DNA from: Botryococcus braunii
Taxonomy: Eukaryota > Chlorophyta > Trebouxiophyceae
Reading direction: 5' to 3'
Length of the DNA stretch: 64,000 nt
NCBI GenBank assembly: GCA_002005505.1
Contig: KV908359.1
Location: 723,760-787,759 of the forward strand
Positions within the stretch are counted from its first letter, which is position 1; every line of letters starts with the position of its first letter. The notes below the pieces were generated by a model. It was given only the letters and a program-made list of their open reading frames with translations. It searched no databases and was not told the DNA's origin. The translations under genes were made by a program, and so were the position numbers. Below are positions 3,878 to 43,313 of this stretch, piece by piece.

Positions 3878-3942
3878 TGTTATGTATTAGTTGGAGGATG
3901 CCGTAACTGTAAGCGGTACGTATGCCGTTGGAGAATCACTTC

Positions 3943-4269
3943 CTGTGAACACCACCAAGTAATCTCAATGTCTATATAGACCAGTGCTCGCACTGCCGTC
4001 TATATCTGCCGACTGCTCTCCGATCAGGACACCCTTGGCCCTTCAGCAGTCCCAGGAGTTTAATGGCTACTCCCAACCAATCGCTATAACCAGTGTGCAA
4101 CTCGTCACACACAAATAGCCTTACTGTTCGCACAACAGTAACACACAAGCAATGCAGCTCCTGTATTGAAATGAATGTGACAGCAGTATATCAAGCAATC
4201 CTTCAATACAGAGCAAACACTATTCAGCTTGGAGTTCGAAGCCCAGATGCATTCCACACCCCATCGAGA
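3943..4269 (-). other. Compact (intron-less) leader copy in B 3' LTR
   Basis: 327 nt that match, base for base as far as I can read, the four exon segments of 4299-4938 joined end to end. In sense (minus) orientation this copy lies downstream of the intron-containing one and runs directly into the last 65 nt of the LTR, as if spliced onto a fifth exon. The same arrangement recurs at 10667-10993 in the 5' LTR and in both LTRs of element D. Confidence 0.85.
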
Positions 4270-4298
4270 CTCGTTACAAATGGTTTACGTATATTTAC

Positions 4299-4938
4299 CT
4301 GTGAACACCACCAAGTAATCTCAATGTCTATATAGACCAGTGCTCGCACTGCCGTCTATATCTGCCTGCACCCGAGCGTTACGATTTACTTGTGGGTTCA
4401 TCAGTGTCCACAAAATATATCTAAACCACATGAAACACACACGCAACCTATCCACATATGTGTACGTACCGACTGCTCTCCGATCAGGACACCCTTGGCC
4501 CTTCAGCAGTCCCAGGAGTTTAATGGCTACTCCCAACCAATCTGCACAATATGTGGATCATCAGAGATCAAAACAAAACAGTTATTTAACCAGCAGGAGC
4601 ATGCTTGTTATACGTATCTGTACTCACCGCTATAACCAGTGTGCAACTCGTCACACACAAATAGCCTTACTGTTCGCACAACAGTAACACACAAGCAATG
4701 CAGCTCCTGCAACACAAGACACATGTAATGTTTCATAATCAGCAGAAACATCAGTATGCATGTGCTTAACGCCTACGATCGCAGCCACACGACTGCGACC
4801 GTTACCCTTGCCAGCGATCGCAAGCTTACCTGTATTGAAATGAATGTGACAGCAGTATATCAAGCAATCCTTCAATACAGAGCAAACACTATTCAGCTTG
4901 GAGTTCGAAGCCCAGATGCATTCCACACCCCATCGAGA
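4299..4938 (-). other. Intron-containing leader copy in B 3' LTR
   Basis: 640 nt holding the same 327 nt of exon as the compact copy plus three insertions that read as GT-AG introns on the minus strand (CT...AC on plus): 4707-4829 (123 nt, GTAAGC...TTGCAG), 4542-4627 (86 nt, GTGAGT...GTGCAG) and 4366-4469 (104 nt, GTACGT...GTGCAG). 640 minus 313 is exactly 327. Exon 1 is preceded by GGCAG (sense), a possible acceptor, and exon 4 is followed by GTAAATATAC, a possible donor; the 29 nt at 4270-4298 also run GT...AG. Confidence 0.85.
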
Positions 4939-5386
4939 CTGCCAAGCTTGCTCGCGATCTGGCGTTTCTATGCCTTCTGATCGTAACCGGCGGTAACGGT
5001 ACAGTTCCTTTCGAGAGGCTGTACCGTACTGCATGGTCACATAAACAACCCTGAGTTGGCCCTATGCCAACGTGTAGCTCTATAGCTGCACCAGGGATCT
5101 CATACTTATACACGCGTACACACTCAATAGAGTCTTTACCTTGTGACCTTACCGTCACTAGCACAAGACCTGTACTGCATGGAGGTCACTTATATGATCA
5201 ACCTAACTGAACATAATACAATACCCTTTGACACGCAATCAGGCGCATCTTCTTACTTGTACTCCACACGTGGAGAAATTCAAGTTATACAATGTTTCCT
5301 AAAACCACTTGATAACCTGATAGCGCCCCCTGTATCTAGTACGTTTGCCATCACGTATCTATACGTACCTATCAGTTTATACAACA

Positions 5387-5530: not shown

Positions 5531-8500
5531 TTAACCCATTCTCAAGCTGTCACGGTGCTTGAGAAATGCTGGACTGGCCAACGGCTTTGTAAAAATGTCA
5601 GCCAGATTTTCCTCTGTGTTGACGTACACCGGCGTGATCTGCCCCCATGCTACCTTTTCCCTCGCTTGATGATAGCACACGCTAATATGCTTGGTGTATT
5701 TGGACAATACATGGTTTTGCAGATTTGCAATACAGCCCATGTTGTCCATTCTTAATTCTACACCAGACACAGACTGACCGAGCTCCTCCAACAAGCTCCC
5801 AAGCCATACTCCTTCCTTTATTGCATGGCTGGCCGCAATAAACTCCGCCTCGACAGTGGAAGTAGCAACTGACTGTTGCTTCTTACTTCCCCACGACACT
5901 GCTCCCCCATTCAGCATGAACACGAAACCAGTTGTTGATTTTCGTGTATCAACATCTCCCGCAAAATCTGAATCTACAAAGCCAGCCAGACTTTGCTTCC
6001 CCTTTCCCCCATAAACCAAACCCATCTCCTTGGTGCCCAACAGGTATCTCACAATCCTCAACCCTGCACGCATGTGTGCAGTGGTTGGGGCAGCACGGTA
6101 ACGTGCCAGCAGGCTTACTGCCTGTGAAATATCAGGACGAGTGGTATTGGCCAGGTACTGCAGTGACCCTACGAGTTCCAGGTACCGGTGTCCGTCCGGT
6201 AGTGGAGACCCTGAACCCGCACTCTCATCCCCCACCTTCCCTTGTGGAAGCTCTGTCTGCACAAAGCTTTTACACATGGGTGTGCTCACTCCCTTGTCAC
6301 TCTCACTCACTCCAAATGACTCCGCAAGATCCTTGATCTTCTGAGTGTTGGAAATCACTATCACTCCCCCATCGCGATCGCGCCTGACTTCACTTCCCCC
6401 CAAGTCGTGAACCTTAAATCTTGCTTTCAACTCACCCTTGATTTCTGACACTCTCTCACCACTCTTGCAGATGATCAGCAAATCATCCACATAGGTAACA
6501 ATGAACGCCCGGTCTTCACCCCTTCCGGAGTCCAAGAATAAGGCCGGGTCGCTCCTACATGCCTTGAAACCCATCTCTCCAAGATCCTTGGAGAGCCTTT
6601 TGTGCCATGCCCGAGGTGCCTGCTTGAGTCCATACAAAGCCTTTCTCAAGCGAAACACCTCCCTTTTATCACCATTAGAGAAACCAGGAGGCTGCGTTAC
6701 ATACACCTCCTCCTCTAATTCTCCATTGAGAAATGCCGTCTTGATATCCACTTGGTGGATTTCAAGATTTTCTGTTGCTGCAATATTCAGCAACACTCTC
6801 CTACATGCATGGGTGCTGACAGGTGCAAAGGTTTGATCACAATCTATACCTTCTACCTGCCTGCAACCTTGCGCTACGAGTCTTGCCTTAAACCGGATGA
6901 CATCGCCATATTCATCCGTCTTTAAGGCAAACACCCAAATCAGAGGAATCACTTTTGCTCCCTCTGGCCTCCTCACCACCTCATACGTGTCACATTCTTC
7001 AATAGCATCTAGCTCCTCTTGCATGGCTTGCTTCCAGTACTCCTTTTGAGGACTGGCAAGCGCTTCTCCAATGTGTTTTGGAATGGACAACTCTGATGCT
7101 TTCAATTTTGCCTCCTCAACTACTACTGCATGGGCTTTCACTTGCGTGTGATATGCCCCAGGAACATACTTATCTGGCGGGCCAACTCTCTCTCTCAATT
7201 CGTAACGCCCACCACCTCTTCCCCTCTCTGCATTCTCCTCATTATCATGCTGCTCTTCGTCTCTCTCACTTGCCTGCCCTTGACTTTCACCATCACCATT
7301 TCCCTCATCAGTCACTTCCCCGGCTGGAAGTTCTGCAGGAAGCTGCTGCAGCACCTCCCGTGCACGCCTCATGACTTCATGCATATCGTCCGTTCGTAAT
7401 TCCGGGTTTATCGCAATTTCGCGCGGGGCATCAACTGCCTCTTCCAGGGAAACCTCAGGTACCTCCTCTTCATCATGAAACAACTCTTCAACCCTCACTT
7501 CAGGTTGTAGTGTGGGTGGAGTTACAACCGGATAGCCCAACTCATCTTCAATAAATCTCACATCCTTACTCACCATTACCTTGCCTTGCACCAGGATCCG
7601 ATACGCCTTGGATCCTGTTTCATATCCCACAAACATGCCCGCAACTGAGCGCGGACCAAGTGCTGACAGCTGCCTATCAGGCAGCTTCACATAAGCCAAA
7701 CAACCCCAAACCTTCAGGTGAGCAACTGAGGGTTTCTTGCCATAGAATGCCTCATACGGACAAGACTCCTTTCCACTGACGGCACTCACATTCAGCAGTC
7801 GTACCACAGTGTGTGCTGCCTCAGCCCATAGTTCAGGCCCTGCCTCTGCTGTGAAGAGGAGAGCCCTCACTCGTTCCTTGATTACCCTGTTTACACGCTC
7901 TACCTTGCCATTTTGTTGAGGCGTGTACGGTGCAGAGGTCTGATGCGCGATCCCCTTTCTGGCAAAGAAATCTGCCAGCTCGCGATTTACAAATTCAGTA
8001 CCTCTGTCCGTCCTAACAGTGCCAACTTTACATTTGGTTGACACCTCCCAATTCAAGAGGACCTCTTGAACGAGTGCTCCTACCTCAGTCTTTGAACTGA
8101 ACGTCCTGATTTGGATTCTATGCGAGAAGTCGTCCAAAAGGACCAGCATATACTTCTCTCCATTCAGCCCAGCCACAGGCAGCTCTCCCACTACGTCCAT
8201 ATGGACCAGCTGAAGTCTCTCAGTAGACTCAGCCGCAGTGGAGGAAGGCGTGGGAGTCCTAGTCTGCTTCCCCCGTATACAACCGTCACAGTGAGTCACA
8301 ACTCTTTCTACTTCACCCACACTTCCTTTAACCTCATTCACAATCTGCTCTTTCAACATTCTTGACATGCATACAACTCCGGGATGTCCCAACCTTTTGT
8401 GCCACAACTCTGTCTCTTCTCGTGTTGTTACTAAAAGTGCAGCCGCCCCTCCCCATGCACAGAGCCCACTTTTGTGTGACAGGAAGTATAAGCTCCCTTT

Positions 8501-9805
8501 CGGTTCAATATCACATATGAACTCATTTGCCTGGCACATGACAGCCACATATTCCCCTTTTTCATTTACAGAGAATGTGCAACCATCTTTGACAGCAGCT
8601 GACACGGACAAGAGGTTATCAGTCGCTGTCGGGACATACTCAACATGTGTAAGCAACACACTTCCCCCACCTTGCACAGATAAACACACATTTCCCTGTG
8701 CCTTTCGCAATCCTTGACCATCACTCGCTGCCAGTCCCAGTGGTTTGGCTTCATCATAAACAATGACATTGGACATTAAATGCAAATCATTGCATATATG
8801 GTTAGTAGCACCCGTGTCAACAATCCACTGCCCTTCCCCAGTGTTTTGTAACTTTGAGGATGCCATCCCTGCCCTTGGATTTACCTCTTCTCCAGTGGGT
8901 GGGTTACCTCGGTTAGGAGGGTGCACAAGTCTTGGGCAGTTCACTTTAATATGCCCCCTCTCACCACACTCATAGCATGTCCGATAATCGTTCCTGACAG
9001 CCGGACCCGGCTTACGGACAACAGCCGCCCTTGGAGCCCTTGGTTGCTGATCATTGAAACCGATGGTTTCTGCAACCACCCTTATAGCAGCCAAGGTTTG
9101 GTTAACATTGCATGTAGCAGTGGAAGAAGATAAACTTGGTTTATGAGCATCAAACTTGTACGGAAGGCACTTCAGGATTGACTTCTTAAGTTTTGTTTGT
9201 GTTACTGGCATGTTGTTATCATTCAGTCTTTTTGCCAGCAGCTCTTTCCTAGCCACATATTCTTCCAACGTGCCCTCATTCCCCATTATTTCACTGTCCA
9301 ACAGCTCCAGCCATTGGTCATTGATTTCCAAGTTTGCTCCCCCTTGGAACTGGCTCATAATCCATTTAAATGCCACTGCTGCAGATTCAGCAAATGCCAC
9401 CTTCTGAGCCCACACTTCTGGAACCTTTTGCAGCAACAAATGCAGTGCCACTGCATCCCCTTTAGTCCCAGGCATGGACGTTTTTAGGCATTCCAGCACA
9501 TTCCTGCTCACGGCACAATGGAACACATTTTGTTTCCAGATGTCCAACGAAAAACCCAGTCTATCTAAGGAGGTGGTGACCTGCAGACTGGAGTTCACTG
9601 GACTCGTCGGATCTTCCCGGCCAGATGTACTGGCCGGTTCAGATCCCCTAGCCACTGCTGTTCCAACTCCTGAATCTCTTCCCATGTCAGTCGCTGTAAC
9701 CCCATCACTGGTTCCAGCCACCCCCGTGAGATCCCCTCGTAGGTCTGGAAGTAATCCGGATGGAGCCGCAACGGATTGAGTCCCAGCTCCTCCACCTCCC
9801 TCCAT
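5531..9805 (-). CDS. gag-pol: Copia element B Gag-Pol polyprotein
   Basis: 1,424 codons, single open frame. Gag core starts near residue 73; CCHC knuckle CYECGERGHIKVNC near 277; protease IVDTGATNHICND near 327; integrase finger LWHKRLGHPG (about 467) with CDGCIRGKQ (about 505); integrase core at MDVVGELP (about 535), RTDRGTEF (about 597) and QQNGKVERVNR (about 633); reverse transcriptase from about 915 with catalytic YVDDLLII near 1105; RNase H with DSDFAGD near 1280 and the C-terminal NLADIFTKPL. Its first 70 codons overlap ORF0 in the -1 frame, so the true Gag start may be later or reached by frameshift. Compared with A, C, E and F it lacks the FLG(C)Q segment after the catalytic motif (HDLGGSEV instead of HDLGEVKDFLGCQV), a net loss of 18 nt that keeps frame. 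Activity is therefore doubtful. Confidence 0.93.
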   Translation of the reverse strand: MEGGGGAGTQSVAAPSGLLPDLRGDLTGVAGTSDGVTATDMGRDSGVGTAVARGSEPASTSGREDPTSPVNSSLQVTTSLDRLGFSLDIWKQNVFHCAVSRNVLECLKTSMPGTKGDAVALHLLLQKVPEVWAQKVAFAESAAVAFKWIMSQFQGGANLEINDQWLELLDSEIMGNEGTLEEYVARKELLAKRLNDNNMPVTQTKLKKSILKCLPYKFDAHKPSLSSSTATCNVNQTLAAIRVVAETIGFNDQQPRAPRAAVVRKPGPAVRNDYRTCYECGERGHIKVNCPRLVHPPNRGNPPTGEEVNPRAGMASSKLQNTGEGQWIVDTGATNHICNDLHLMSNVIVYDEAKPLGLAASDGQGLRKAQGNVCLSVQGGGSVLLTHVEYVPTATDNLLSVSAAVKDGCTFSVNEKGEYVAVMCQANEFICDIEPKGSLYFLSHKSGLCAWGGAAALLVTTREETELWHKRLGHPGVVCMSRMLKEQIVNEVKGSVGEVERVVTHCDGCIRGKQTRTPTPSSTAAESTERLQLVHMDVVGELPVAGLNGEKYMLVLLDDFSHRIQIRTFSSKTEVGALVQEVLLNWEVSTKCKVGTVRTDRGTEFVNRELADFFARKGIAHQTSAPYTPQQNGKVERVNRVIKERVRALLFTAEAGPELWAEAAHTVVRLLNVSAVSGKESCPYEAFYGKKPSVAHLKVWGCLAYVKLPDRQLSALGPRSVAGMFVGYETGSKAYRILVQGKVMVSKDVRFIEDELGYPVVTPPTLQPEVRVEELFHDEEEVPEVSLEEAVDAPREIAINPELRTDDMHEVMRRAREVLQQLPAELPAGEVTDEGNGDGESQGQASERDEEQHDNEENAERGRGGGRYELRERVGPPDKYVPGAYHTQVKAHAVVVEEAKLKASELSIPKHIGEALASPQKEYWKQAMQEELDAIEECDTYEVVRRPEGAKVIPLIWVFALKTDEYGDVIRFKARLVAQGCRQVEGIDCDQTFAPVSTHACRRVLLNIAATENLEIHQVDIKTAFLNGELEEEVYVTQPPGFSNGDKREVFRLRKALYGLKQAPRAWHKRLSKDLGEMGFKACRSDPALFLDSGRGEDRAFIVTYVDDLLIICKSGERVSEIKGELKARFKVHDLGGSEVRRDRDGGVIVISNTQKIKDLAESFGVSESDKGVSTPMCKSFVQTELPQGKVGDESAGSGSPLPDGHRYLELVGSLQYLANTTRPDISQAVSLLARYRAAPTTAHMRAGLRIVRYLLGTKEMGLVYGGKGKQSLAGFVDSDFAGDVDTRKSTTGFVFMLNGGAVSWGSKKQQSVATSTVEAEFIAASHAIKEGVWLGSLLEELGQSVSGVELRMDNMGCIANLQNHVLSKYTKHISVCYHQAREKVAWGQITPVYVNTEENLADIFTKPLASPAFLKHRDSLRMG

Positions 9806-10575
9806 GATGGCAGTCGGTCAAATACTGCCTTACTCTGCCCTTGGTGTAAACGGAACTGGAACTGTACCAGCTCGATATACACGTGGTATTCTCTGTACCA
9901 CCTGAGTACCTGTCCTGTTCCCTCTCTTCCCTCAACAATAGCTCTGTCGAGAAAGAACGAAGGAAAACCTTCCAGTGGCCCGCCTGCAGTTAGCTTAAAT
10001 AACTCCTGCAAACGGTTCCACACTTTCAGAAAATAGTGCACCTCCCAGTCTTCTTTTGGAAGGCTCTTCCCGTATAGCTCTGCTACCTCATGCACCAGGC
10101 TATCAGCAAGGGGATCACTGAACACAATCAATTCCTCCCACTTGACCAGAATGGGCTCCTCTCGTGGCTGTGTCAGACCAGCCAAGAATGCCGTTGATAT
10201 GATTCCTTCACACAGAGCGGACCCTTCTTCACTTTCACAAGTCTTAACAAAGATGTAGTTTGCTCGTTCAACAGGATCAGGAAGATTGTTCAGCACAATG
10301 TCTTGGTGATGCACAATTGGCCTTTGAAATTGACCCTTTGGAACACCAGGCCTCTCAATATGAATATACAGACCCGGGTCTCCAAAATAGTCAGGAACTT
10401 TAAAGTGAGTCCTGACAAAAGGAATGGGATACTCTGAGTATTCCGGTCTTCTTGGATGCTGTTGACGTACTGCAGGTCGCAGTCCTCTTCCTCTCGTTGT
10501 TGGGAAAGGTCTCGGCGTCCGTTGCTCTTCAGGTTCCGGTGTATCTTCGATCACAATGACTTCCTCCTCTGGCAT
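9595..10575 (-). CDS. ORF0 of element B (accessory protein, unknown function)
   Basis: 326 codons starting at an ATG only 11 nt downstream of the primer-binding site, so this is the first long frame of the internal region. N terminus is acidic (MPEEEVIVIEDTPEPEE), followed by a Pro/Arg-rich stretch and a globular region rich in aromatic and Glu/Leu residues (LVKWEELIVFSDPLADSLVH; WEVHYFLKVWNRLQELF). The last 211 nt overlap gag-pol in another frame, and the stop falls just before the conserved Gag core. Element D keeps a diverged copy of the start (MQDDDVILIEDT), showing that the ORF belongs to the family. No clear similarity to the ORF0 of elements A, C and G, and no known domain recognised. 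It could supply a Gag extension or a nucleic-acid-binding cofactor; this is inference. Confidence 0.7.
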   Translation of the reverse strand: MPEEEVIVIEDTPEPEEQRTPRPFPTTRGRGLRPAVRQQHPRRPEYSEYPIPFVRTHFKVPDYFGDPGLYIHIERPGVPKGQFQRPIVHHQDIVLNNLPDPVERANYIFVKTCESEEGSALCEGIISTAFLAGLTQPREEPILVKWEELIVFSDPLADSLVHEVAELYGKSLPKEDWEVHYFLKVWNRLQELFKLTAGGPLEGFPSFFLDRAIVEGREGTGQVLRWYREYHVYIELVQFQFRLHQGQSKAVFDRLPSWREVEELGLNPLRLHPDYFQTYEGISRGWLEPVMGLQRLTWEEIQELEQQWLGDLNRPVHLAGKIRRVQ

Positions 10576-10586: not shown

Positions 10587-10599
10587 TGGGCCCATAACC
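10587..10599 (-). promoter_or_regulatory. Primer-binding site of B (initiator tRNA-Met anticodon arm)
   Basis: Sense strand GGTTATGGGCCCA, 2 nt after the 5' LTR. It is the exact complement of UGGGCCCAUAACC, the anticodon stem-loop of eukaryotic initiator tRNA-Met, not of a tRNA 3' end. Drosophila copia is known to prime from a cleaved half of this tRNA. Confidence 0.85.
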
Positions 10600-10601: not shown

Positions 10602-12110
10602 TGTTATGTATTAGTTGGAGGATGCCGTAACTGTAAGCGGTACGTATGCCGTTGGAGAATCACTTCCTGTGAACACCACCAAGTAATCTCAATGTCTATA
10701 TAGACCAGTGCTCGCACTGCCGTCTATATCTGCCGACTGCTCTCCGATCAGGACACCCTTGGCCCTTCAGCAGTCCCAGGAGTTTAATGGCTACTCCCAA
10801 CCAATCGCTATAACCAGTGTGCAACTCGTCACACACAAATAGCCTTACTGTTCGCACAACAGTAACACACAAGCAATGCAGCTCCTGTATTGAAATGAAT
10901 GTGACAGCAGTATATCAAGCAATCCTTCAATACAGAGCAAACACTATTCAGCTTGGAGTTCGAAGCCCAGATGCATTCCACACCCCATCGAGACTCGTTA
11001 CAAATGGTTTACGTATATTTACCTGTGAACACCACCAAGTAATCTCAATGTCTATATAGACCAGTGCTCGCACTGCCGTCTATATCTGCCTGCACCCGAG
11101 CGTTACGATTTACTTGTGGGTTCATCAGTGTCCACAAAATATATCTAAACCACTTGAAACACACACGCAACCTATCCACATATGTGTACGTACCGACTGC
11201 TCTCCGATCAGGACACCCTTGGCCCTTCAGCAGTCCCAGGAGTTTAATGGCTACTCCCAACCAATCTGCACAATATGTGGATCATCAGAGATCAAAACAA
11301 AACAGTTATTTAACCAGCAGGAGCATGCTTGTTATACGTATCTGTACTCACCGCTATAACCAGTGTGCAACTCGTCACACACAAATAGCCTTACTGTTCG
11401 CACAACAGTAACACACAAGCAATGCAGCTCCTGCAACACAAGACACATGTAATGTTTCATAATCAGCAGAAACATCAGTATGCATGTGCTTAACGCCTAC
11501 GATCGCAGCCACACGACTGCGACCGTTACCCTTGCCAGCGATCGCAAGCTTACCTGTATTGAAATGAATGTGACAGCAGTATATCAAGCAATCCTTCAAT
11601 ACAGAGCAAACACTATTCAGCTTGGAGTTCGAAGCCCAGATGCATTCCACACCCCATCGAGACTGCCAAGCTTGCTCGCGATCTGGCGTTTCTATGCCTT
11701 CTGATCGTAACCGGCGGTAACGGTACAGTTCCTTTCGAGAGGCTGTACCGTACTGCATGGTCACATAAACAACCCTGAGTTGGCCCTATGCCAACGTGTA
11801 GCTCTATAGCTGCACCAGGGATCTCATACTTATACACGCGTACACACTCAATAGAGTCTTTACCTTGTGACCTTACCGTCACTAGCACAAGACCTGTACT
11901 GCATGGAGGTCACTTATATGATCAACCTAACTGAACATAATACAATACCCTTTGACACGCAATCAGGCGCATCTTCTTACTTGTACTCCACACGTGGAGA
12001 AATTCAAGTTATACAATGTTTCCTAAAACCACTTGATAACCTGATAGCGCCCCCTGTATCTAGTACGTTTGCCATCACGTATCTATACGTACCTATCAGT
12101 TTATACAACA
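10602..12110 (-). repeat. 5' LTR of element B
   Basis: 1,509 bp, same length as the left LTR and almost identical. Contains the compact copy at 10667-10993 and the intron-containing copy at 11023-11662, with introns at 11090-11193, 11266-11351 and 11431-11553. Should carry B's promoter on the minus strand. Its plus-strand right end happens to be open in frame with element A pol. Confidence 0.95.
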
Positions 12111-13756: not shown

Positions 13757-14482
13757 TGTTATAATAGTAAAAGAACAATTAGTGACTTTCCCTCAGAAGA
13801 GTAATAGTGGCCAGGCTTCTCTAAAGCAATCACTGTGAACAATCTTAGAGGTTGAGTAAGGGATGGCAGAACTCTAGAGTTCTGCCATAATTGATCTGGA
13901 CTGATTCCATTTCGGAGAAAGAGAGTAATGCAATCTGACGCGTTCTTGCGAGAAAGGATATAGGCAGCAGGCATGAAGGGCTCGGTACTTGTTTGGGACT
14001 GAAAGAGCACTCCGGGTGCTTATCTCTGATCAGTTGCCACAAGTGTCAACACATAGTCGGGCTCTGCTTGCTCTCCTACACACAGCAAGAGACCCGACCG
14101 AGCTTAACACCCTTCGTGCCGGGACATACAGGTGAAGTGCTGCATCTTAGTAACTTGCATGAACAATTGATTAGGAAGAGGTCTAGATAAGCGTATTAGA
14201 ATATTGCTAATGCTTGGCTCATCGAACAATGGTAATGCGAACTATCTGTCGATGCGTAGAAGAGGTAGTTTGAATTCCTTGGCGTTGAGAGAGAGCAAGA
14301 AGCAATGTAATGACTTGTTTGGGACTGAAAGAGCACTCCGGGTGCTTATCTCTGATCAGTTGCCACAAGTGTCAACACATAGTCGGGCTCTGCTTGCTCT
14401 CCTACACACAGCAAGAGACCCGACCGAGCTTAACACCCTTCGTGCCGGGACATACAGGGAACATTACGCCCAGAATTGTACA
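13757..14482 (+). repeat. 3' LTR of element A
   Basis: 726 bp, TGTTATAATAG...AATTGTACA; same length as both A2 LTRs. Contains a 145-nt segment twice: 13987-14131 and 14313-14457, apparently identical. The first copy ends CATACAG followed by GTGAAGTG (donor-like); the second ends CATACAG followed by GGAACATT and the LTR end. Confidence 0.93.
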
Positions 14483-15207
14483 ATAATAGTGACAGAACAT
14501 TTTGGTGCCTTTCCCTCAGAAGAGTAATAGTGGCCAGATTAGCTCCAATTACCAGTGAGAACATTTATTAGAATGAGTAATAGGTGGCAGAACCTAGGAG
14601 TTCTGCCAGAACCAATCTAGACCAATTGTACGTCAATAAGGGAGGATAAGGTAATCAGACACGGTTTGCTCGAAAGGCTATATGCTCCTGGCTCGAAGGA
14701 CTGAGGCACTTGATTGGGACATCAAAAGCACTTCGGGTGTTTGATACTTTACTGTTGCCAGTCAAGTCATCTCATTCACAGTCGACACTGCTTGTTACTC
14801 GACACACAACAAGAGTGTCGCCGGGCTAAACACCCTCGTGCCGGGTCATACAGGTAAACTGCTGTCAGGACATCACATGCATAAGAACAATGGATTAGGA
14901 AAGGGTCTAGATAGTGTGTAATAGAAAGGTGCTACTGCTTAGCTCATCGGACATCGGTAATGCAGACTATCAGTAACCTCGCAGATAGAGTAGTTTGAAT
15001 TGCTGAGTGATGAGAGAGAGCAATAAGCATTGTAAGACTTGATTGGGACATCAAAAGCACTTCGGGTGTTTGATACTTCACTGTTGCCAGTCAAGTCATC
15101 TCATTCACAGTCGACACTGCTTGTTACTCGACACACAACAAGAGTGTCGCCGGGCTAAACACCCTCGTGCCGGGTCATACAGGGAACGCCGAACTCAGAA
15201 GTTTACA
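14483..15207 (+). repeat. LTR of a further copia element (J), start cut by element A
   Basis: About 725 bp, related to but clearly different from A's LTR (shared start ATAATAGT, CCCTCAGAAGAGTAATAGTG). Ends GAAGTTTACA. Holds a 146-nt segment twice, 14708-14853 and 15037-15182, one difference seen; the 183 nt between them begin GTAAACTG and end TGTAAG, a GT-AG pair. No primer-binding site follows, so this is either a solo LTR or the 3' LTR of an element extending left of the window. It sits in the 5' part of element E. Confidence 0.75.
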
Positions 15208-16269: not shown

Positions 16270-17341
16270 GTAATCCATTTTCCAGATGGGTGGTAGACTC
16301 AGGAGCTTCAACGCACATATGCAATGATGTCAGACTCATGCAAAACATTCACTGGTATACACAACCAAAGGGCCTGAACTTAGCAACTGGTGAACAAATT
16401 GCACAACGCAAGGCATGTGGCTCTGTATGTTTAGTAGGTGAACTGGGTAATATGTGTAAACTAAAAAATGTAGAGTATGTGCCTACTGCCATTGAAAATC
16501 TATTGTCAGTTTCATGTGCAGTAACGGATGGCATATCGTTTTCAAATAATGCACATGGAGAGATCATATGCATGTCTAGTAACACCTCAAGATTCACTTC
16601 AGAGGTCAGAAAGGAAAGGGGATTGTATTTTGTTCACTGTCTGTGCTGTAAAATTCAGCCATCACACAGTGTGGGTTATGCTCACAAATGTTCTGAATAT
16701 GATTTGTGGCATCAACGTTTAGGACATCCAGGGAGTAAAAACCTGGAACGACTGCAGACTGAGGATATGGTGAATGGAATATCTACATCTCTTTCTCCTT
16801 GTTTGCACGGTCATTCACTGTGTGATGTGTGTGTGATGGGCAAGCAGATTAGAGAAAGCTACCAACGGCCTCCAGTATCAGCAACTGAATGTCTTCAGCT
16901 GTTGCACCTGGATGTTATTGGTGAGCTACCAGTGCCAGGAGCTGAGGGTGAGCGCTACATGCTCACAGTACTAGATGATTACTCTAGAGCCGGTGAATCT
17001 ATGGCATTGACCTCCAAGTCCCAGGTGGGTGGTGCTGTTAAGTCTATCATCCTGTATCTAGAAAATCAGACTAATCACAATGTCAAGGTGGTTAGGTCTG
17101 ACAGGGGAAGTGAGTTTGTAAACTCTGACTTGCTTGACTTTTTCCAGCCTAAAGGGATCAGACACGAAACGTCTGCCCCTTACACCCCTCAGCAGAATGG
17201 GAGAGCAGAACGTTTTAACAGATCATTAAAAGAAAAAGTTAGAATTCTTCTGCTTCAGGCAAAGGCTCCACAAAGCATGTGGGCGGATGCACTCCCAACA
17301 GCTGTCAGGTTGTTAAATCTCAGAGCAGTAAAGGGGAAGAC
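16270..17341 (+). pseudogene. pol: Copia element E protease-integrase, cut by gypsy element Z
   Basis: Frame carrying protease VVDSGASTHICND (about 16290), integrase finger LWHQRLGHPG with CDVCVMGKQ, and integrase core LDVIGELP, RSDRGSEFVN and QQNGRAERFNR. It ends at codon AAG/AC where Z is inserted (TSD AAGAC, 17337-17341) and resumes at 24217. It is separated from gag by frameshifts around 16170-16280, so a Gag-Pol fusion cannot be made. Residues after the Z LTR boundary in the open frame are not part of this gene. Confidence 0.85.
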
Positions 17342-17639
17342 TGTAACAGGAAAAGTCGCGTGTTATAGGAAAATGACCGGACCACGAGGATTTGGACCTC
17401 CATAAAGGTCCCTTCGTGAGTTATGTTCCTCCACGCCAAGAAGTGGCTACTTCACGCGCCAAGGGAGTGACCCTTACTTGACAAGGCGCATTGGCGATGG
17501 AGACAGGGACACACTTAGAACAGGATAGAATAAGGCTTTGGCAGAGGAAGGACCGGGCCGGACTGGACGGGTACTGAGGTGGAGCCCAAACAACTTGTAA
17601 CCATTGTTTTCGCATCCTTTGGCCGTTTCTACTGTATCA
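17342..17639 (+). repeat. 5' LTR of gypsy element Z
   Basis: 298 bp, TG...CA; matches 23914-24211 throughout my comparison. Confidence 0.95.
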
Positions 17640-17640
17640 C

Positions 17641-17655
17641 TGGTATCGGCGAGAG
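17641..17655 (+). promoter_or_regulatory. Primer-binding site of gypsy element Z
   Basis: TGGTATCGGCGAGAG, one base after the LTR; complementary to a tRNA 3' end with CCA. The same 15 nt serve gypsy element I at 61277-61291. Shares TGGTATC with the plant initiator-Met site but then differs, so the tRNA is not certain. 17656-17855 is leader without a clear gene. Confidence 0.8.
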
Positions 17656-17855
17656 GGGCCAAATTTTGAGCTCCTCTCGTTGAAAAAATTTCCCAAAGAA
17701 GTTTTTCAGAGAATTCTATAGATTCGGATTGGGTTAGTTGTGGTGTGTGTGGCGCTTTTAGGGGCCTACGACTCGGGTCACCGAGTTTAGGGCCCCCACC
17801 CGGACTTTCTCGATTTCCTGTGTCACCGAGCCTCGCCAGCACTGACAGCTCAGAT

Positions 17856-19187
17856 ATGGCTAGACGACAAGTCGAAGAGCTGCAGGCTGCTTTGGCAGAG
17901 GCCGAGGGGCGTGAAGCGGCAATGGCTGCCGAACTGGCTGAGTTACGACAACAGGCAGAAAACGCTGAAGTTGCGGCTCAAAACCCCGCGAACCCACAGG
18001 CAAGAATCCCGACCGTTAGAACCCACTTACCGGAAAAATTCGAGGGACGCAGGGACGATCTCGAACAATTCCTAGACGATGTGAGGTAATATTGTGAACT
18101 CACCGGTGTGCCCGCGAACCTCAGGGTTGACTACGCAGTGCGCTGCTTAGGAAAGAGCGTGAAAAAGGTGTGGTTAACCAAAAAAGCAGCTTACGTGAGG
18201 CAAAATCCAGGTGCTGTCGTGGATTTAGCTCTCTTTGGGGATCTGTTGTCTTCTGTCTATGATAACACTGATAAGGTTGCAAAGGCAAGGGATAAACTTG
18301 ATTCCGTATATCAGGGCAACGAATCAGTTGAGAAGTATGTTGAGCGCTTTACAACCTTGCTAGCAGAGGTAGAAGTCAGTGGGGACCTATCCATGGGGGA
18401 GAAAATCCATAGGTTTCGTAAAGGCCTACGTGAGGATTTAAAGAAATATTCAGCAATTAACCCTACAACAGGCAAAGGTTTTGATGATTTGGATGCCTTG
18501 ATAAGTTTACTCACACGGTACGATGCCGCGGTGGGCGGGCCCTTACAGGCAAAGAGACTGAGAACCGGCCCCGGGGGCCCTAACTCAAGCATTGCAACCG
18601 CCACCGTTGGCCCAGCACCGCACGTTGCTGGCGTCGGACAGGACTGGACAATCCCCTACTACAGTCATGAATTTGGGATGATGGCAGCTGCACCGATGGT
18701 GGCAGCGCCAATCCAGATGGCCCATGGTTACCCTGCGCCGCTCGCCACGGTCGCCGCGATCCAAGGCGCGACTCCTTATCCCCGCAGGGATGGTTTACCT
18801 CCCGAGTATCGGAGGGACACTAGAGTTGCCTTTCCCCTCAACAGAAGCTGTTACGCGTGCAATACCCCTGGCCATGAATCTTGGTTTTGCCCACTCAAAA
18901 AACTTAGAGAGGACCCTAACGCCTATCTTAATCAACAACAGTGGGACATCTTGCAACACATTGTGAAGGCCAGACAGGAGGTAAACCAGCCTGCTCCACC
19001 AATTCCAGGTCTGGCTGGTGATTTGCTGCGGCGACGGGTAGGAGGGGGCCACAACAACTTTAGGTCCCTCGGTGTGGGAGCAGCCCCTATGCAAGGGTGG
19101 ACAGCACAGGGTGGGGCCGGACGGGGACGGAGAATCAGAGGACGGGGCCGTGGACGGGGCCGGGCAAGGGGACGCGGTAGGCCATGA
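17856..19187 (+). pseudogene. gag: Gypsy element Z Gag with one in-frame stop
   Basis: 444-codon frame from ATG 17856 to TGA 19185-19187, broken only by TAA at 18087-18089; both sides are in the same frame. N terminus has a coiled-coil-like Ala/Glu region (ELQAALAEAEGREAAMAAEL), then a Ty3 Gag core (VEKYVERFTTLLAEVE), a CCHC knuckle CYACNTPGHESWFC near residue 331 and an Arg/Gly-rich tail suited to RNA binding. An open GTG-initiated extension upstream to 17745 is probably not used. The stop is most simply a single C-to-T change (CAA to TAA), unless it is read through. Its TGA overlaps the pol ATG. Confidence 0.85.
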
Positions 19188-22100
19188 GTGGAGTTAGAGA
19201 AGGAAACCTCCACACTTTTGTTCCTTGGGAATCTTTTCATTCTTCTATCGAGCAACGTTGTTCTGAGTTTTTGCATTGTTCTTTTTCTAGAGGCCCCTTT
19301 GACAATACCCTACCCGATGGAACGTCTAAACCGACATTTGTTGCAGTACCTATAGGTAAAGCGGAGGACACCTTATCCACTTTCGCTCGTGAGCAACAAG
19401 CAAATAAACATTTAAGTGCTTGTTTTCTAATGGGTAGTAAAGTGGCGAAATCCAAGGCAGTGTACCCATGGCTAAAAGGCATGAGAGTTATCCTGCAAGG
19501 TACCAAGGGACCTGATGTCCCCTACTCCTATGTAGTTTACCATGCCGGACCCAAATTTAGCGTATCTTTTGCTCAAGCTTTTTCAAATAGGCATTTAGCA
19601 ATGCTTTTTCATGTTAACTGTACTGGTGTGAAGGGCGTCGCTTTAGTCGATACCGGGGCGACGCACTCGTTCGTCAGACAAGACTTCCTAGCTACTCTCG
19701 GAGTGAGGCTGTCAAAGAAGTGTGTGGATGTCCAGCTGGCAGATGGACAGACCATGCGCTCGGCGGGGACAGCTAAGCTCAGGGTGCACTTATCTCAAAC
19801 ATATGTGGAACAGAGGGATTTCATTGTCTGCGAAACTCTGTTGGATGGGGTGGACTTAATCCTTGGGGAGGATTTTCTGAAAGAAAGAAAAGCGTTAATT
19901 GACTACAATCATGGCGCAGTTCATCTTAAACCGCCTCATTCCTCACACTACATTACACTCCTCAACCCGCTGCCCCCTAGTGAAAGATGTACCTTACCGG
20001 CGCAAAAAGTGAATGTTATAAGTGAGGGTCAAGCTAGGCGGGCTATGCGAAAGGGTTGTCCAGGGTTTTGGGGGGTTGTGCGAGAGGCAAGGAGTGGACA
20101 GGACTCAGTTTGTGCAACACACTATCTCCATAGGGTTGCAGTGGCAACTACAGAGGGGGATAATCCTTGGGACGAAGACAGCGGAGCCACCGGCCTAGAT
20201 TTAAACGAAAACTCCCGGCGTGTTATTGAGGGTATGACTGACAAGCCACAAGACTTGAAGCAATTGTTGTTAGAGTTTTTGGATGTTTTTCCAGAGAAAT
20301 TGCCAGATTTACCTCCAGACAGGGGCATCTTGCACACTATACCTATGACACCCGGCCATACGCCGCCCTGTCGCCCCACTTATAGGTTGGCTGAACCAGA
20401 AGTGGCGGAGTGTCGGAGGCAGGTTGAGGAATTACTAGCACAGGGTTTCATCAGGCCGAGTGCATCACCGTATGGTAGCCCCATATTGTTTGTGAGAAAG
20501 AAAGACGGAACATTCCGAATGGTTATAGATTACAGGGCAGTTAATAACTTAACAAGGAAGGACAAATATCCGTTGCCACGGATAGACGATCTTCTGGACA
20601 AGCTGCAGGGTTCAAAGTTCTTTACCTCTTTTGATCTCTTGTCAGGTTACCATCAAGTGCGATTACATGAATCCGATGTTCCCAAAACCGCCTTTAGAAC
20701 ACCCTTAGGTTCATTTGAATTTTTGGTGCTTCCTTTTGGTCTCACGAATGCTCCCTCCACGTTTCAGAGACTGATGAACAGTGTGTTTCATGATTTTATT
20801 CGAGAAGGTTTTGTTGTGGTTTACCTAGATGATTTGTTGGTATACAGCAAGTCCAGGGAACAGCACTTAGAGCACTTAACTCGCATCCTTACTCGGCTGA
20901 GAGAGGAAAAACTTTATGCAAAATTATCCAAGTGTGAGTTTTTTGCTGACGAGTTGCGGTATTTGGGACATGTCGTGGGGCGCGACGGCATCAAAGTTGA
21001 CCCTGCCAAAGTTCGGACTATTGTGGACTGGCCAACACCCACGGGGAGCACGCACGTACGACAATTCTTGGGACTAGCCAACTACTTCCGCAAGTTCGTC
21101 CCGGGTTACAGTACGCTTGCGGCCCCCTTAACCCGGCTCACTGGCAAAGTTCCTTGGACGTGGGGAGAAGCTGAAGAGCACGCGTTTCAAAGTTTAAAAG
21201 AAACTTTGTCCAATGCTCCTGTACTAGCACTCCCAGACAGTAGCAAGCCTTTCAAAGTGATCTCAGATGCCAGTGACTATGGGGTGGGTGCAGTACTATT
21301 GCAAGAAGGTAGACCTGTAGCATACTTCAGTAAAAAGCGTAGTAATGCCGAACGCAATTATTCCACAACTGAGAAAGAGCTTGCAGGTGTGTTGTATGCC
21401 CTCAAGGAGTGGAGGTGTTACTTATTAGGGCAAACTTTCACAGTTGTTACGGACCATCGCGCGAATAGTTTTTTGCAAACCCAAACCCTACTCTCACCCA
21501 GACGGGCGCGCTGGGCGGAGTTTCTACAGTTATTCGACATCCAATGGGAATATGCGCCGGGATCCACTAACCCTGCTGACCCATTGTCTAGGAGTCCTCA
21601 CTTAGCCGGGGCCCACGTCCGAGCCCTAGCTCGGGCCCAGGCTGGGGTTCAGGCGTCGGTTCAGGCTAGGGCAGGACCCCTGGGGGAGCACTCTCCCCCT
21701 GTCGGAGTAGGAGCGATGGGGGTTGGGGAGGCTGCAGACTCCACCACCCTACCCACGCCGATGGACGGGTTGAGGGGATGGGGAAGGGTTTTAAGTGAGG
21801 CATATGAGATAGATTATTGGCTCCATCGTAAACAAAATCGCCGCAAGTTAAGCTTCCATAGTGGCTTGTGGAAGCGCGGTGCGCGCATTTACGTTCCCTC
21901 CCACCATATGAGTTCTGACGGTGTCGAACGTAACCTTCGTAGAGAAATCCTGGAAAATTTGCATGGACCACCTATAGTTGGTCATCCAGGCAGGGACAGG
22001 ACCCTCGAATTAGTGCAACGTTCCTGGTGGTGGCCAGGGATGGCCTCAGATGTGGCTGACTTTGTGGCCAAATGTGACTCGTGTCAACGTGTCAAAGCCC

Positions 22101-23329
22101 CAGCACACTTACCTGTAGGGTTACTACACCCTCTAGAAATACCTGACAGAAAGTGGCAATCAATGTCTATGGACCTAATCACTGGACTGCCAAGAACTAA
22201 GGAAGGATATGACGCTATCTGGGTTGCTGTTGATAGGTTGTCAAAGTATGCGCACTTCGCTCCGACAACCACTGACGCAAGTGCAGAAGTGATAGCTCAA
22301 CTGTTACGGACCCGGGTTTTCACCTTGCATGGGTTTCCCACTCACATTGTATCAGACAGAGATCCTAGGTGGGTGGGTCGCTTCTGTCAAGAGCTCTTTC
22401 GGTTGACCGGTTGTCGCTCTGCGCTATCTACAGCGTTTCATCCGCAGACCGACGGTCAAACGGAACGAATTAATAGGATTTTGGAGGATTATTTGCGTCA
22501 TTACGTCACTGGAAGACACAACGACTGGGATAAACATTTGTGTGAGGCTGAATTTTCTTACAACAACACTTTTCAGCAATCAATCAACACTACTCCATTT
22601 AGGTTGACTTTCGGTCAGGATCCCACGATTCCCTTCCAGGAAGTCTATGAAGGTGTGACATCTTCTGTACGTGAGTATGTACCGGCAGCAGCAGAGTTTG
22701 TACGAAGGATGAGATGGGATCTAGAAAGAGCGCGGACATGTCTCAAAGCTGCGCAGGACCGCATGAAGGCATATGCGGACGCGAGGAGAAAAGATGCTCC
22801 TATTTTAAAAATAGGCCAACCTGTCCTCCTCTCAACAAAGAATCTGAAATTCAAGCATACTCGGACAAGAAAACTCTTACCTCGGTTTATTGGGCCTTTT
22901 CCCATCGTCCAGGAGGTATCATCGGTAGCTTTCAGAATTAGGCTTCCAAAAACTCTGAGGGTTCATGATGTCTTCCATGTTTCTATGCTTAAGCCTTATA
23001 AGGAAGGTGGGACGGTACAACCTCCTCCTCTACCTGAGATTATTGATGGAGAAGAGGAGTATGAGGTCGAGGCTGTGCTAGCTCATAGGGAACGAAAGTT
23101 ACGAGGTCGAAAAACTGCGCGAGAATATCTTGTAAAGTGGACCGGGTATCAGGATATTCATAATACTTGGGAGCCAGAGGATAACTTAGAACACGCCAGG
23201 GAGGCGTTACAGCGGTACTGGGATTTAACCACGGAGCACAGGCCGGAACAAAAAGAAAAGGTGGACAAGAAACGTAAAGGACGTGGTAAAAATGCTGAGA
23301 AGCAGCGGAAGCGCGCTAGGCGCGCTTAG
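19184..23329 (+). CDS. pol: Gypsy element Z Pol with chromodomain
   Basis: 1,381 codons, intact. An N-terminal extension, then aspartic protease ALVDTGATHSFV (about 153); reverse transcriptase with IDYRAVNNLT and catalytic YLDDLLVYS (about 546); RNase H (ISDASDYGVGAVLLQ about 691; TTEKELAGVLYALKEWR); integrase HHCC finger (HPGRDRTLELV, CDSCQRVK, about 932) and core (SMDLITGLP about 995, VSDRDPRW about 1055, HPQTDGQTERINR); chromodomain about 1292-1340 (YLVKWTGYQDIHNTWEPEDN), which in chromoviruses steers integration to marked chromatin; Lys/Arg-rich tail. The ATG overlaps gag's TGA as ATGA, suggesting coupled termination-reinitiation. Confidence 0.95.
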   Translation: MSGVREGNLHTFVPWESFHSSIEQRCSEFLHCSFSRGPFDNTLPDGTSKPTFVAVPIGKAEDTLSTFAREQQANKHLSACFLMGSKVAKSKAVYPWLKGMRVILQGTKGPDVPYSYVVYHAGPKFSVSFAQAFSNRHLAMLFHVNCTGVKGVALVDTGATHSFVRQDFLATLGVRLSKKCVDVQLADGQTMRSAGTAKLRVHLSQTYVEQRDFIVCETLLDGVDLILGEDFLKERKALIDYNHGAVHLKPPHSSHYITLLNPLPPSERCTLPAQKVNVISEGQARRAMRKGCPGFWGVVREARSGQDSVCATHYLHRVAVATTEGDNPWDEDSGATGLDLNENSRRVIEGMTDKPQDLKQLLLEFLDVFPEKLPDLPPDRGILHTIPMTPGHTPPCRPTYRLAEPEVAECRRQVEELLAQGFIRPSASPYGSPILFVRKKDGTFRMVIDYRAVNNLTRKDKYPLPRIDDLLDKLQGSKFFTSFDLLSGYHQVRLHESDVPKTAFRTPLGSFEFLVLPFGLTNAPSTFQRLMNSVFHDFIREGFVVVYLDDLLVYSKSREQHLEHLTRILTRLREEKLYAKLSKCEFFADELRYLGHVVGRDGIKVDPAKVRTIVDWPTPTGSTHVRQFLGLANYFRKFVPGYSTLAAPLTRLTGKVPWTWGEAEEHAFQSLKETLSNAPVLALPDSSKPFKVISDASDYGVGAVLLQEGRPVAYFSKKRSNAERNYSTTEKELAGVLYALKEWRCYLLGQTFTVVTDHRANSFLQTQTLLSPRRARWAEFLQLFDIQWEYAPGSTNPADPLSRSPHLAGAHVRALARAQAGVQASVQARAGPLGEHSPPVGVGAMGVGEAADSTTLPTPMDGLRGWGRVLSEAYEIDYWLHRKQNRRKLSFHSGLWKRGARIYVPSHHMSSDGVERNLRREILENLHGPPIVGHPGRDRTLELVQRSWWWPGMASDVADFVAKCDSCQRVKAPAHLPVGLLHPLEIPDRKWQSMSMDLITGLPRTKEGYDAIWVAVDRLSKYAHFAPTTTDASAEVIAQLLRTRVFTLHGFPTHIVSDRDPRWVGRFCQELFRLTGCRSALSTAFHPQTDGQTERINRILEDYLRHYVTGRHNDWDKHLCEAEFSYNNTFQQSINTTPFRLTFGQDPTIPFQEVYEGVTSSVREYVPAAAEFVRRMRWDLERARTCLKAAQDRMKAYADARRKDAPILKIGQPVLLSTKNLKFKHTRTRKLLPRFIGPFPIVQEVSSVAFRIRLPKTLRVHDVFHVSMLKPYKEGGTVQPPPLPEIIDGEEEYEVEAVLAHRERKLRGRKTAREYLVKWTGYQDIHNTWEPEDNLEHAREALQRYWDLTTEHRPEQKEKVDKKRKGRGKNAEKQRKRARRA

Positions 23330-23913
23330 TGCTCTGGCAGGTCGGGTCGGCCCCTCGGTGCGTCCTTGGGCCACCTTGGAAGCTCTAAGCTTGGCCCTTA
23401 GAGTGTACCCTGGGGGTATCCCAGTACTAGAGCGCACTCGGATGAATAGGACGTAAGCGGGGTAGAATGTCTGCCTCGGGTGCGTGCGGTGATGACCGCT
23501 CACCCTGGACAGGACTCGTCGAGGTAGGGTGTCGTCTACCTCGGGTGCGTGCGGTGTTGACTGCTCACCCTTGTCAGGTTTCGGACGTCAATCATGTAAT
23601 GTCGCGACATCCGTGCTAGCTCGCGCTGTAGCGTAACGCCCGACGCAGATGGGTGGCCCCACTGCCGTTGGGTAGAATTCCTATTGGACAGGACGGGCGA
23701 ATTTATGTATGGACGGGACAGATTTTACATTGTTATACGGACAGGGCTGGACAAGACAGGACAGGGGTCTGGCTTGGGCTGGGGACGCCAGACTAGTACC
23801 CGCGGACAGGACGTGACAGGACCGTACCTCTGCCAAGTGTGTTAGGTGCGTAGTGTAGTTGTTTAGAGTGAGTCTCCCTCTTGGCCGTGACGTCCAAGCT
23901 AAGGGGGGGAGGG
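23330..23913 (+). other. 3' UTR of gypsy element Z with short repeats and PPT
   Basis: No gene. Two copies of a roughly 45-nt motif (CCTCGGGTGCGTGCGGTG...CTCACCC) lie at about 23474-23575, and GGACAGG/GGACGGG words recur between 23680 and 23820. The purine run AAGGGGGGGAGGG at 23901-23913 just before the LTR is the polypurine tract. Confidence 0.75.
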
Positions 23914-24211
23914 TGTAACAGGAAAAGTCGCGTGTTATAGGAAAATGACCGGACCACGAGGATTTGGACCTCCATAAAGGTCCCTTCGTGAGTTATGTTC
24001 CTCCACGCCAAGAAGTGGCTACTTCACGCGCCAAGGGAGTGACCCTTACTTGACAAGGCGCATTGGCGATGGAGACAGGGACACACTTAGAACAGGATAG
24101 AATAAGGCTTTGGCAGAGGAAGGACCGGGCCGGACTGGACGGGTACTGAGGTGGAGCCCAAACAACTTGTAACCATTGTTTTCGCATCCTTTGGCCGTTT
24201 CTACTGTATCA
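23914..24211 (+). repeat. 3' LTR of gypsy element Z
   Basis: 298 bp, pair of 17342-17639. Confidence 0.95.
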
Positions 24212-26585: not shown

Positions 26586-26612
26586 ACTAATGTTGGCATG
26601 TCCTGAAAGTAC

Positions 26613-26622
26613 AAGGAAAAGA
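26613..26622 (+). promoter_or_regulatory. Polypurine tract of element E
   Basis: AAGGAAAAGA just before the 3' LTR that begins at 26624. Confidence 0.6.
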
Positions 26623-26623
26623 T

Positions 26624-26876
26624 TGTGGGAATTTGTGTACTGTCAGGCCAATCCAAAGATGACAATTCTAGCAAGAATAAATTAGCTGTATAGTTGACCC
26701 ATGTGCTCAACTCAAGGGAAACTCTTTGACAAACAACCAGTGGTCTCTTGGCCACAAGTATTAATGTATAAAGGTATCTAAGAACATGGTGGAGAATGTC
26801 CTTCCTGTTGCTTGTGGCTATCAGATATGGGATTATCCTAGTAGCTAATAACGTGATAAACTCTCATTAGGATAAG
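26624..26876 (+). repeat. 3' LTR of element E, first part
   Basis: Starts TGTGGGAATTTGTG. Ends where element F is inserted (TSD ATAAG at 26872-26876, repeated at 32439-32443) and resumes at 32444. Same family as solo LTR K2. Confidence 0.88.
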
Positions 26877-27576
26877 TGTTGAGTTGTGAACATACATTAT
26901 AGAATGCCTTGTGCTTTAGGTGATCTTCAAATGTACATTATTAGGATACGGGTCCACTATCCACATAAGGTACCTCAAGACACGTTCGGATGAGGTCTAT
27001 TTCAAACATAAGGTACAATCTGATTTAGATTACGCGTTAGTGTGAAAGGACTATTAAAGCTGCGATCACCGCATAGTCGAGCAACTGGTTTGGAAAGATA
27101 CTGGGCACATAGGATGCCAGTCTTGTTCATGCAGTTGCATGTGTCTAAAGAGCAGACAGTCGTCAAGGACTGTAGCTGGAGAGGCACGAGCTTACGACCT
27201 ATCTGCTTGCTTACAGGTGCGGTGACGCAGGGGGTGTATTGGTAATGTGTTCATGTTTGATTGTTTGTTTGTAAGTGAACCATCTTAGTGGACAATCAAG
27301 TCTCCCAAACAGCTAAGGGACGGAGTCTTGATTGAGTATAGGAAGGTACTTGCTTTCAGCCGTCAGGAGCTTATCCGTGTGTAGATGCTCATTGACAGAT
27401 CAACATGTAACGGAACTGGTTTGGAAAGATACTGGGCACATAAGGATGCCAGTCTTGTTCATGCAGTTGCATGTGTCTAACGAGCAGACAGTCGTCAAGG
27501 ACTGTAGCTGGAGAGGCACGAACTTACGACCTGTCTGCTTGCTTACAGGATACGCCACTGCCCATAACCTTTTACA
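26877..27576 (+). repeat. 5' LTR of element F
   Basis: 700 bp, TGTTGAGTTG...CCTTTTACA. A 134-135-nt segment occurs twice (27083-27216 and 27414-27548); the first is followed by GTGCGGTG, the second by GATACGCC. The LTR ends with GCCCATAACC, which is complementary to the adjoining PBS. Two CATAAGGTAC words lie at about 26966 and 27007. Confidence 0.92.
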
Positions 27577-27589
27577 GGTTATGGGCCCA
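27577..27589 (+). promoter_or_regulatory. Primer-binding site of F, in a hairpin with the LTR end
   Basis: GGTTATGGGCCCA directly after the LTR, complementary to the initiator tRNA-Met anticodon arm. GCCCATAACC at 27560-27569 is its perfect 10-nt inverted complement across a 7-nt loop. Confidence 0.85.
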
Positions 27590-27625
27590 CGCCCTTCCAG
27601 CTGAGCCAAGGGCAGACAGGAGTGC

Positions 27626-31728: not shown

Positions 31729-31737
31729 AAGGGGAAG
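31729..31737 (+). promoter_or_regulatory. Polypurine tract of element F
   Basis: AAGGGGAAG directly before the 3' LTR. Confidence 0.8.
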
Positions 31738-32438: not shown

Positions 32439-32443
32439 ATAAG

Positions 32444-42391: not shown

Positions 42392-42398
42392 AGGAGAC

Positions 42399-43258: not shown

Positions 43259-43313
43259 CCACTCTCCCGTTGAGTGTGTGTGGCTGGCTCAAGAATCGGA
43301 GACGAGAAGCTGT

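Follow-up and report, generated by a model that had tools for sequence, protein, structure and literature searches.

Copia LTRs of Botryococcus braunii that carry an intron-bearing leader beside its spliced copy

Six Ty1/copia LTR families nested in a 64,000-nt window of the Botryococcus braunii genome (the whole stretch of DNA analysed here) carry their leader twice, once unspliced and once as a spliced copy, instead of following the canonical single-leader U3-R-U5 plan. To our knowledge, this two-leader plan departs from every canonical U3-R-U5 LTR known. The distribution of variants between the two copies suggests that every, or almost every, retrotransposition writes the spliced copy anew from the exons, and the best explanation, which we consider likely, is a replication cycle that passes through a spliced 5′ leader and rebuilds the LTR introns in each round. 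The window was characterized as a nest of LTR retrotransposons by self-comparison, and matches to its LTRs were sought across the 176-Mb assembly that contains it.

Element B, on the minus strand, is bounded by a 3′ LTR at 3878–5386 (1509 nt, TG...CA) and a 5′ LTR at 10602–12110, which is 99.93% identical and has the same anatomy shifted by +6724; its target site duplication (TSD) is GTAAG. Along the 3′ LTR, U3 (4941–5386) is followed by exon 1 (4830–4940, 111 nt), with the putative transcription start at its first base, intron 1 (4707–4829, 123 nt), exon 2 (4628–4706, 79 nt), intron 2 (4542–4627, 86 nt), exon 3 (4470–4541, 72 nt), intron 3 (4366–4469, 104 nt), and exon 4 (4299–4365, 67 nt), which ends in CAG immediately before a GT donor. 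All three introns have GT–AG ends. A 27-nt linker (4272–4298, GTAAATATACGTAAACCATTTGTAACG), which starts with GT, ends with TGTAACG, and would form the 5′ part of a last intron, leads into the spliced copy of exons 1–4 (3943–4271, 329 nt, 0 mismatches), whose terminal CAG we infer to be the acceptor of that last intron, and then into the remaining 65 nt of U5 (3878–3942). The 5′ LTR likewise has no exon/copy mismatch. Between the LTRs lie a primer binding site (PBS) region (10587–10599, GGTTATGGGCCCA), complementary to an initiator-tRNA-like anticodon arm, and a gag-pol open frame (5531–9817) with integrase before RVT_2. An intron-bearing leader thus stands beside its own exact spliced copy, and four blocks, three exact excisions, and 0 mismatches in 329 nt rule out chance as the source of this layout. 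The preliminary description of this DNA had recognized three sense GT–AG introns of 104, 86, and 123 nt, with the correct lengths and (minus) orientation, and had equated the joined exons with the neighbouring block; the match is indeed exact, at 329 rather than 327 nt, as identity runs 2 nt beyond the proposed block limits (4299–4940 and 3943–4271 instead of 4299–4938 and 3943–4269), and the spacer given as 29 nt measures 27 nt. That description had also named variable insertion points without GT–AG ends as the pattern that would count against it; instead, introns 1–3 are GT–AG in all 24 B-family LTRs (four in the window and 20 of the 36 matches outside it, from 40 full-length B matches in total). 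The spacer with its GT donor and TGTAA is present in the same 24 of 24, and AG ends the spliced copy in 22 of the 23 LTRs free of a contig-end cut, the exception (L083) having GG.

Element D (TSD TGTCC) is a second member of the B family, with a 3′ LTR at 45434–46931 (exon 1 from 46494 down, linker 45828–45854, spliced copy 45501–45827) and a 5′ LTR at 51705–53202, both on the minus strand and both following the B plan with one exon/copy mismatch. Compared to B, it has 51 substitutions over 436 positions of U3 and 20 over 65 of U5, and an almost identical leader. Between the LTRs at 3878–5386 and 45434–46931, this corresponds to a divergence of 12% in U3 and 31% in U5, against ~1% across exons, introns, and linker. 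This contrast suggests either that subfamilies have exchanged their R region or that it is under strong constraint.

The preliminary description had tied the two-copy plan to a single element; all six families share it as a standing, continually renewed architecture, with four exons in B/D, three in I, and a single one in E, F, G, and H. In these last four, a 134–146 nt exon ending in CAG is followed by a GT donor, a 180–197 nt linker ending in TGTAA plus 1–3 nt, a second exon copy that again ends in CAG, and U5. LTR F (34619–35344, minus strand) comprises an exon (34970–35114), linker (34789–34969, GT...TGTAATA), second copy (34644–34788), and U5 (34619–34643), with a partner at 41666–42391 and another copy at 13757–14482 on the plus strand. 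The remaining three are on the plus strand: LTR E (42554–43246; exon 42756–42897, linker 42898–43077 with GT...TGTAATAG, second copy 43078–43219) is paired with 57055–57747, and LTR G (26874–27576; exon 27083–27216, linker 27217–27413 with GT...TGTAACGG, second copy 27414–27548) with 31735–32438. LTR H (14483–15182; exon 14708–14853, linker 14854–15036 with GT...TGTAAG, second copy 15037–15182) was delimited as the stretch between the end of LTR F and the last base of its own second copy; no PBS was seen downstream of it, and no partner LTR was found. Family I combines three exons and two introns with a spliced copy. Its LTR I-a was divided by element G into a 5′ part at 26611–26874 and a 3′ part at 32439–33288 (plus strand), the latter with exons at 32563–32689, 32780–32838, and 32925–32989, introns at 32690–32779 and 32839–32924, a linker at 32990–33029, and the spliced copy at 33030–33280. 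LTR I-b was divided by element E into a 5′ part at 42389–42554 and a 3′ part at 57747–58225 (plus strand), and has a collapsed form described below. Genome-wide, a first look yielded 255 candidates for B, 910 for F, 158 for I, 1020 for E, and 1521 for G, of which 40 each were scored. For both E and G, all 40 scored places aligned over essentially the whole LTR at 99–100% identity, and the two-copy plan is therefore the form found among the best-scoring copies. Nested among the copia elements is also a Gypsy element (17333–24211) with a chromodomain and 307-nt LTRs; self-comparison revealed no internal duplication in these LTRs (17333–17639 and 23905–24211).

The relationship between the exons and the spliced copy was evaluated from variants. 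Because both LTRs of an element originate at the same time, an exon/copy mismatch common to both was present at birth. Across 21 paired elements (seven each from B, F, and I, paired by contig position and representing a subset of the possible F and B pairs), only two such mismatches occur in ~5,070 exon sites, a substitution in D and a homopolymer indel in L042/L047, which argues that the match between exons and copy is made at replication; the remaining mismatches are mostly private to one LTR. Alleles tell a similar story in family B, in which all six alleles common to at least two elements (two of the six being one 2-nt deletion) have identical carriers in both copies, and the 13 private alleles are found in both copies once and in a single copy 12 times (23 LTRs from 14 elements or clusters by position, with L082, at a contig end, dropped). 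The only shared allele of family F has identical carriers in both copies as well, with two private alleles in both copies and 12 in one (30 LTRs, 20 elements). For family I (24 LTRs, 17 elements, leaving out L062–L067), 33 shared alleles divide into 18 with identical carriers, 10 with overlapping carriers, three found in different elements, and two confined to the spliced copies of two elements (sites 176 and 238), and private alleles are present in both copies in 38 cases and in one in 72. Loci L001–L008 were not counted, as they overlap L069–L077 and places in the window. Exons and spliced copy of family I differ on average by 4.0 within an LTR and by 15.9 between elements (LTR pairs included), and the summed distance of own pairs is 73, compared to a mean of 279.8 and a minimum of 154 in 20,000 shuffles; three of the 24 LTRs (L039, L041, and L047) have a spliced copy closer to the exons of another element than to their own. 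Finally, exon 1 is 49–73% identical between E, F, G, and H and 97–100% identical between the copies inside one LTR, which points to a renewal that is both old and continual. Read directly from the sequence, then, are the anatomy, the GT–AG introns, the exactness of the copy, and its renewal. The spliced copy is no relic, a reading with which the older family I agrees with some scatter, and since none of the introns is present in the renewed copy, it is most naturally derived from spliced RNA.

Signals around the second copy are consistent with such an RNA source. UGUAA is the main poly(A) signal in Chlamydomonas (PMC4025486), and in chlorophytes it peaks at about –17 from the cleavage site (PMC1868727). 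In all six families, TGTAA ends 0–3 nt ahead of the second copy, and it starts 6–8 nt upstream of that copy in the window LTRs of B, D, E, F, G, and H. The motif is present in every linker analysed of families B (24 LTRs) and F (30 LTRs) and in the single window copies that represent E, G, and H, and TGTA/A abuts the spliced copy in 26 of 29 I LTRs, those without TGTAA being the window I-a, L040, and L062. Given this position and a motif-to-cleavage distance of ~17 nt, the RNA would end ~9–13 nt inside the second copy. Hence, the RNA 3′ end probably lies ~10 nt inside that copy and shares a short repeat with its own 5′ end; such a ~10-nt terminal repeat would represent a minimal R, and homology-free joining would not be needed. 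All six families have a leader that terminates in CAG, as expected if the second copy must serve as a 3′ splice site and the leader must accordingly end as an acceptor. We place the transcription start at the first base of exon 1, the point at which homology to the second copy sets in, as the preliminary description had also proposed. TATA-like hexamers (at most one mismatch) are found at –29 to –31 in B/D, F, G, and H, and not in E or I, the hexamer of LTR B being a weak TAGAAA at –30 with one mismatch. As proof of a start site, the TATA box was rejected as too weak, since the control region upstream of the second copy also has one-mismatch hexamers in B/D and I.

In the cycle that we favour, transcription would begin at exon 1 of the 5′ LTR, and every leader intron would be spliced out to yield a mature 5′ end of exons, U5, and PBS. 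The last of these introns would extend from the donor of the unspliced exons through the linker, the TGTAA, and the whole second copy to its terminal CAG. In the 3′ LTR, TGTAA would drive cleavage a few nucleotides past the start of the second copy and, because cleavage precedes the CAG of that copy, the donor there would be left without a usable acceptor; the unspliced exons would remain at the RNA 3′ end, together with the linker and ~10 nt from the start of the leader. Minus-strand cDNA primed at the PBS would then copy U5 and the spliced leader, the 3′ end of this cDNA would anneal to the ~10-nt terminal repeat that closes the RNA, and extension through linker, introns, and U3 would produce an LTR ordered as U3, unspliced leader, linker, spliced leader, and U5. 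Splicing in vivo, the position of the RNA ends, and the annealing through a short repeat are the parts of this cycle that we infer. The idea that a spliced-leader cDNA is attached at the RNA 3′ end was already part of the preliminary description and is supported, as is poly(A) addition within the intron after the last exon, also proposed there. Against this explanation, two or three entire introns that are spliced out at the 5′ end would have to survive at the 3′ RNA end in families B and I. This would be accommodated if unspliced and spliced RNAs were co-packaged and the transfer took place between molecules, and foamy viruses offer a parallel, as one and the same donor can act differently there depending on the RNA end (PMC3694450). 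We are inclined to accept, with some reserve, that the genomic RNA is spliced yet its introns are rebuilt every generation, that the ~10-nt repeat is preferred over 145–330 nt of internal homology, that poly(A) addition in the last intron protects the 3′ copy, and that the freshly processed copy supplies the 3′ half of the intron whose removal eliminates a premature 5′ poly(A) signal. The LTR introns may conceivably serve expression or the hiding of the 5′ poly(A) signal.

A spliced RNA could also be used in a cycle in which the leader cDNA, with no homology involved, is joined directly to the end of an RNA whose poly(A) site lies exactly at the end of the linker. This would explain the anatomy and the renewal equally well, as well as a copy that begins exactly at the start of exon 1. 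We know of no LTR element with homology-free end-to-end joining, and no A run derived from a poly(A) tail was found at the junctions examined. Moreover, the junction lies 0–3 nt past TGTAA, compared to the ~12 nt that usually separate the motif end from the cleavage site and ~17 nt for the motif position itself (PMC1868727). The preliminary description had opted for end-to-end joining with poly(A) addition 29 nt into intron 4, which would put cleavage at TGTAACG, too near the motif, and we regard this route as unlikely.

A conventional cycle through unspliced RNA, with a long R made of exon and linker and a spliced copy that arose once from a processed transcript and was kept alike by occasional recombination or template switching with the exons, would require no new transfer step, and the genomic RNA of retroviruses is unspliced as a rule. 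The few family I alleles restricted to the spliced copies of two elements (sites 176 and 238) would fit it too. However, homogenization extends to exons 1, 2, and 4 of B, on either side of three introns, and has left every intron in place. In addition, the paired LTRs of 21 elements share just two mismatches, so that each cycle would need an almost complete correction, which makes this alternative quite improbable. Duplication or gene conversion in chromosomal DNA after insertion has next to no chance of keeping the copies alike, given that the copies drift apart in inserted elements, where mismatches are mostly private to one LTR, and that changes at the DNA level do not remove introns exactly, even if one family I element on contig C228, with a standard 5′ LTR and an extra unspliced block in its 3′ LTR, likely owes that block to a later duplication.

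Intron loss through spliced RNA is the classic proof of retrotransposition, established with the intron-marked Ty1 (cited in PMC12786077). In the abundant copia families described here, introns persist in precisely the stretch that reverse transcription copies, where loss would be expected, and the spliced copy logs each cycle beside its unspliced source. If the cycle through a spliced leader and a short terminal repeat is correct, it would provide a new answer to the problem of silencing the 5′ poly(A) site while using the 3′ one, its first-strand transfer would favour a very short repeat at the RNA end over extensive internal homology, and exon/copy mismatches, which date the last replication, would offer a built-in clock. 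If confirmed, this replication step would be new; a search restricted to open-access literature found no description of introns renewed in LTRs.

By their domains, LTR ends, TSD, and PBS, the elements belong to Ty1/copia. The gag-pol frame of B, which was scanned for domains, contains rve at 532–632 and RVT_2 at 942–1180, i.e., integrase upstream of reverse transcriptase (RT), and the sequences flanking family I were read by eye as copia-type RT. A PBS was seen in five of the six families (GGTTATGGGCCCAC in B, E, F, G, and I, GGTCATGGGCCCAC in D). Its complement occurs in initiator-tRNA-like sequences at two loci and its 16-nt core at six; we take the PBS-complementary loci to be initiator tRNA. 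Drosophila copia has a PBS to an internal stretch of initiator tRNA, and an internal initiator-tRNA PBS, integrase before RVT_2, TG...CA LTRs, and a 5-bp TSD are all features that the window elements share with Ty1/copia (Pseudoviridae, e.g., Osser of Volvox). They differ from it in the introns in R and the renewed spliced leader copy in U5, and we know of no copia element with both. Algal proteins of Micractinium (42% identity) and Tetradesmus (43%) were among the best protein matches, although many of the named ones came from land plants, and a search of viral contigs for relatives yielded no confirmed locus. Two metagenome proteins are 87% (P0001, over the full length; the closest match) and 94% (P0035, over half) identical to the RT region of B, which indicates that close relatives of B exist in environmental contigs.

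Several other systems partially resemble this one. Foamy viruses have their major splice donor upstream of the LTR poly(A) signal (PMC3694450), and a donor so placed in R allows the 5′ signal to be suppressed and the 3′ one to be used; the window elements would work like them without being members, as they differ in RT class, and the spliced leader copy, complete R introns, and renewal are absent from the cited portion of the foamy virus description (PMC3694450). In the copia element EVADE/ATCOPIA93, splicing is coupled to cleavage and polyadenylation, and an intron and a poly(A) site similarly compete, but that intron is in GAG rather than in the LTR, yields a subgenomic mRNA, and, according to the passages cited, is not regenerated by strand transfer (PMC8892269). 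Penelope-like elements keep introns through replication, for which antisense or unspliced templates have been weighed; they differ in having pLTRs and an RT of another lineage, and a spliced copy beside an unspliced one does not feature in the cited part of their description (PMC3846280). Penelope-like elements are recognized by a telomerase-like RT and GIY-YIG without integrase, and B instead has RVT_2 and an integrase core.

LTRs that deviate from the two-copy plan were also detected. In the favoured cycle, the same cDNA could anneal to the internal unspliced exons, giving a collapsed LTR of U3, spliced leader, and U5 without TGTAA. The window contains one such LTR, I-b, in which U3 is joined to the spliced leader at 57967–58217 and TGTAA is lacking. 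With I-b as a query, 11 further full-length matches contiguous from U3 to the end of U5 were obtained at 85–87% identity among the 40 scored of 162 candidates, and the one read in sequence lacked TGTAA and was directly followed by the PBS. Eight of these 11 form four same-contig pairs (on C153, C322, C35, and C468), which argues that each such element was created with two LTRs already collapsed; collapsed LTRs can also result from recombination between tandem copies or from descent of one collapsed lineage. The paired I-type elements on these four contigs, with intronless, TGTAA-free LTRs, form one group. A pattern search for collapsed I LTRs returned 0 hits with a pattern that misfits even the window's own collapsed copy.

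Conversely, L062/L063 on C228 contains unspliced, unspliced, and spliced blocks in succession, and C264:166427–167687 has the same match layout. L062 (G000:C228:130993–132308) has no GT donor at the first intron of either unspliced block. Transfer of an unspliced leader was considered as the origin of this triple LTR and rejected, since the 5′ LTR of the C228 element (L041) is standard, and the extra block was thus probably gained after insertion; U3 of L041 differs from that of the 3′ LTR by three substitutions plus gaps over 391 columns. At the ends of LTRs E (43232–43262) and G (27555–27592), GCCCATAACC stands right before the PBS GGTTATGGGC and forms an inverted repeat with it, which may represent a copied segment of the tRNA primer.
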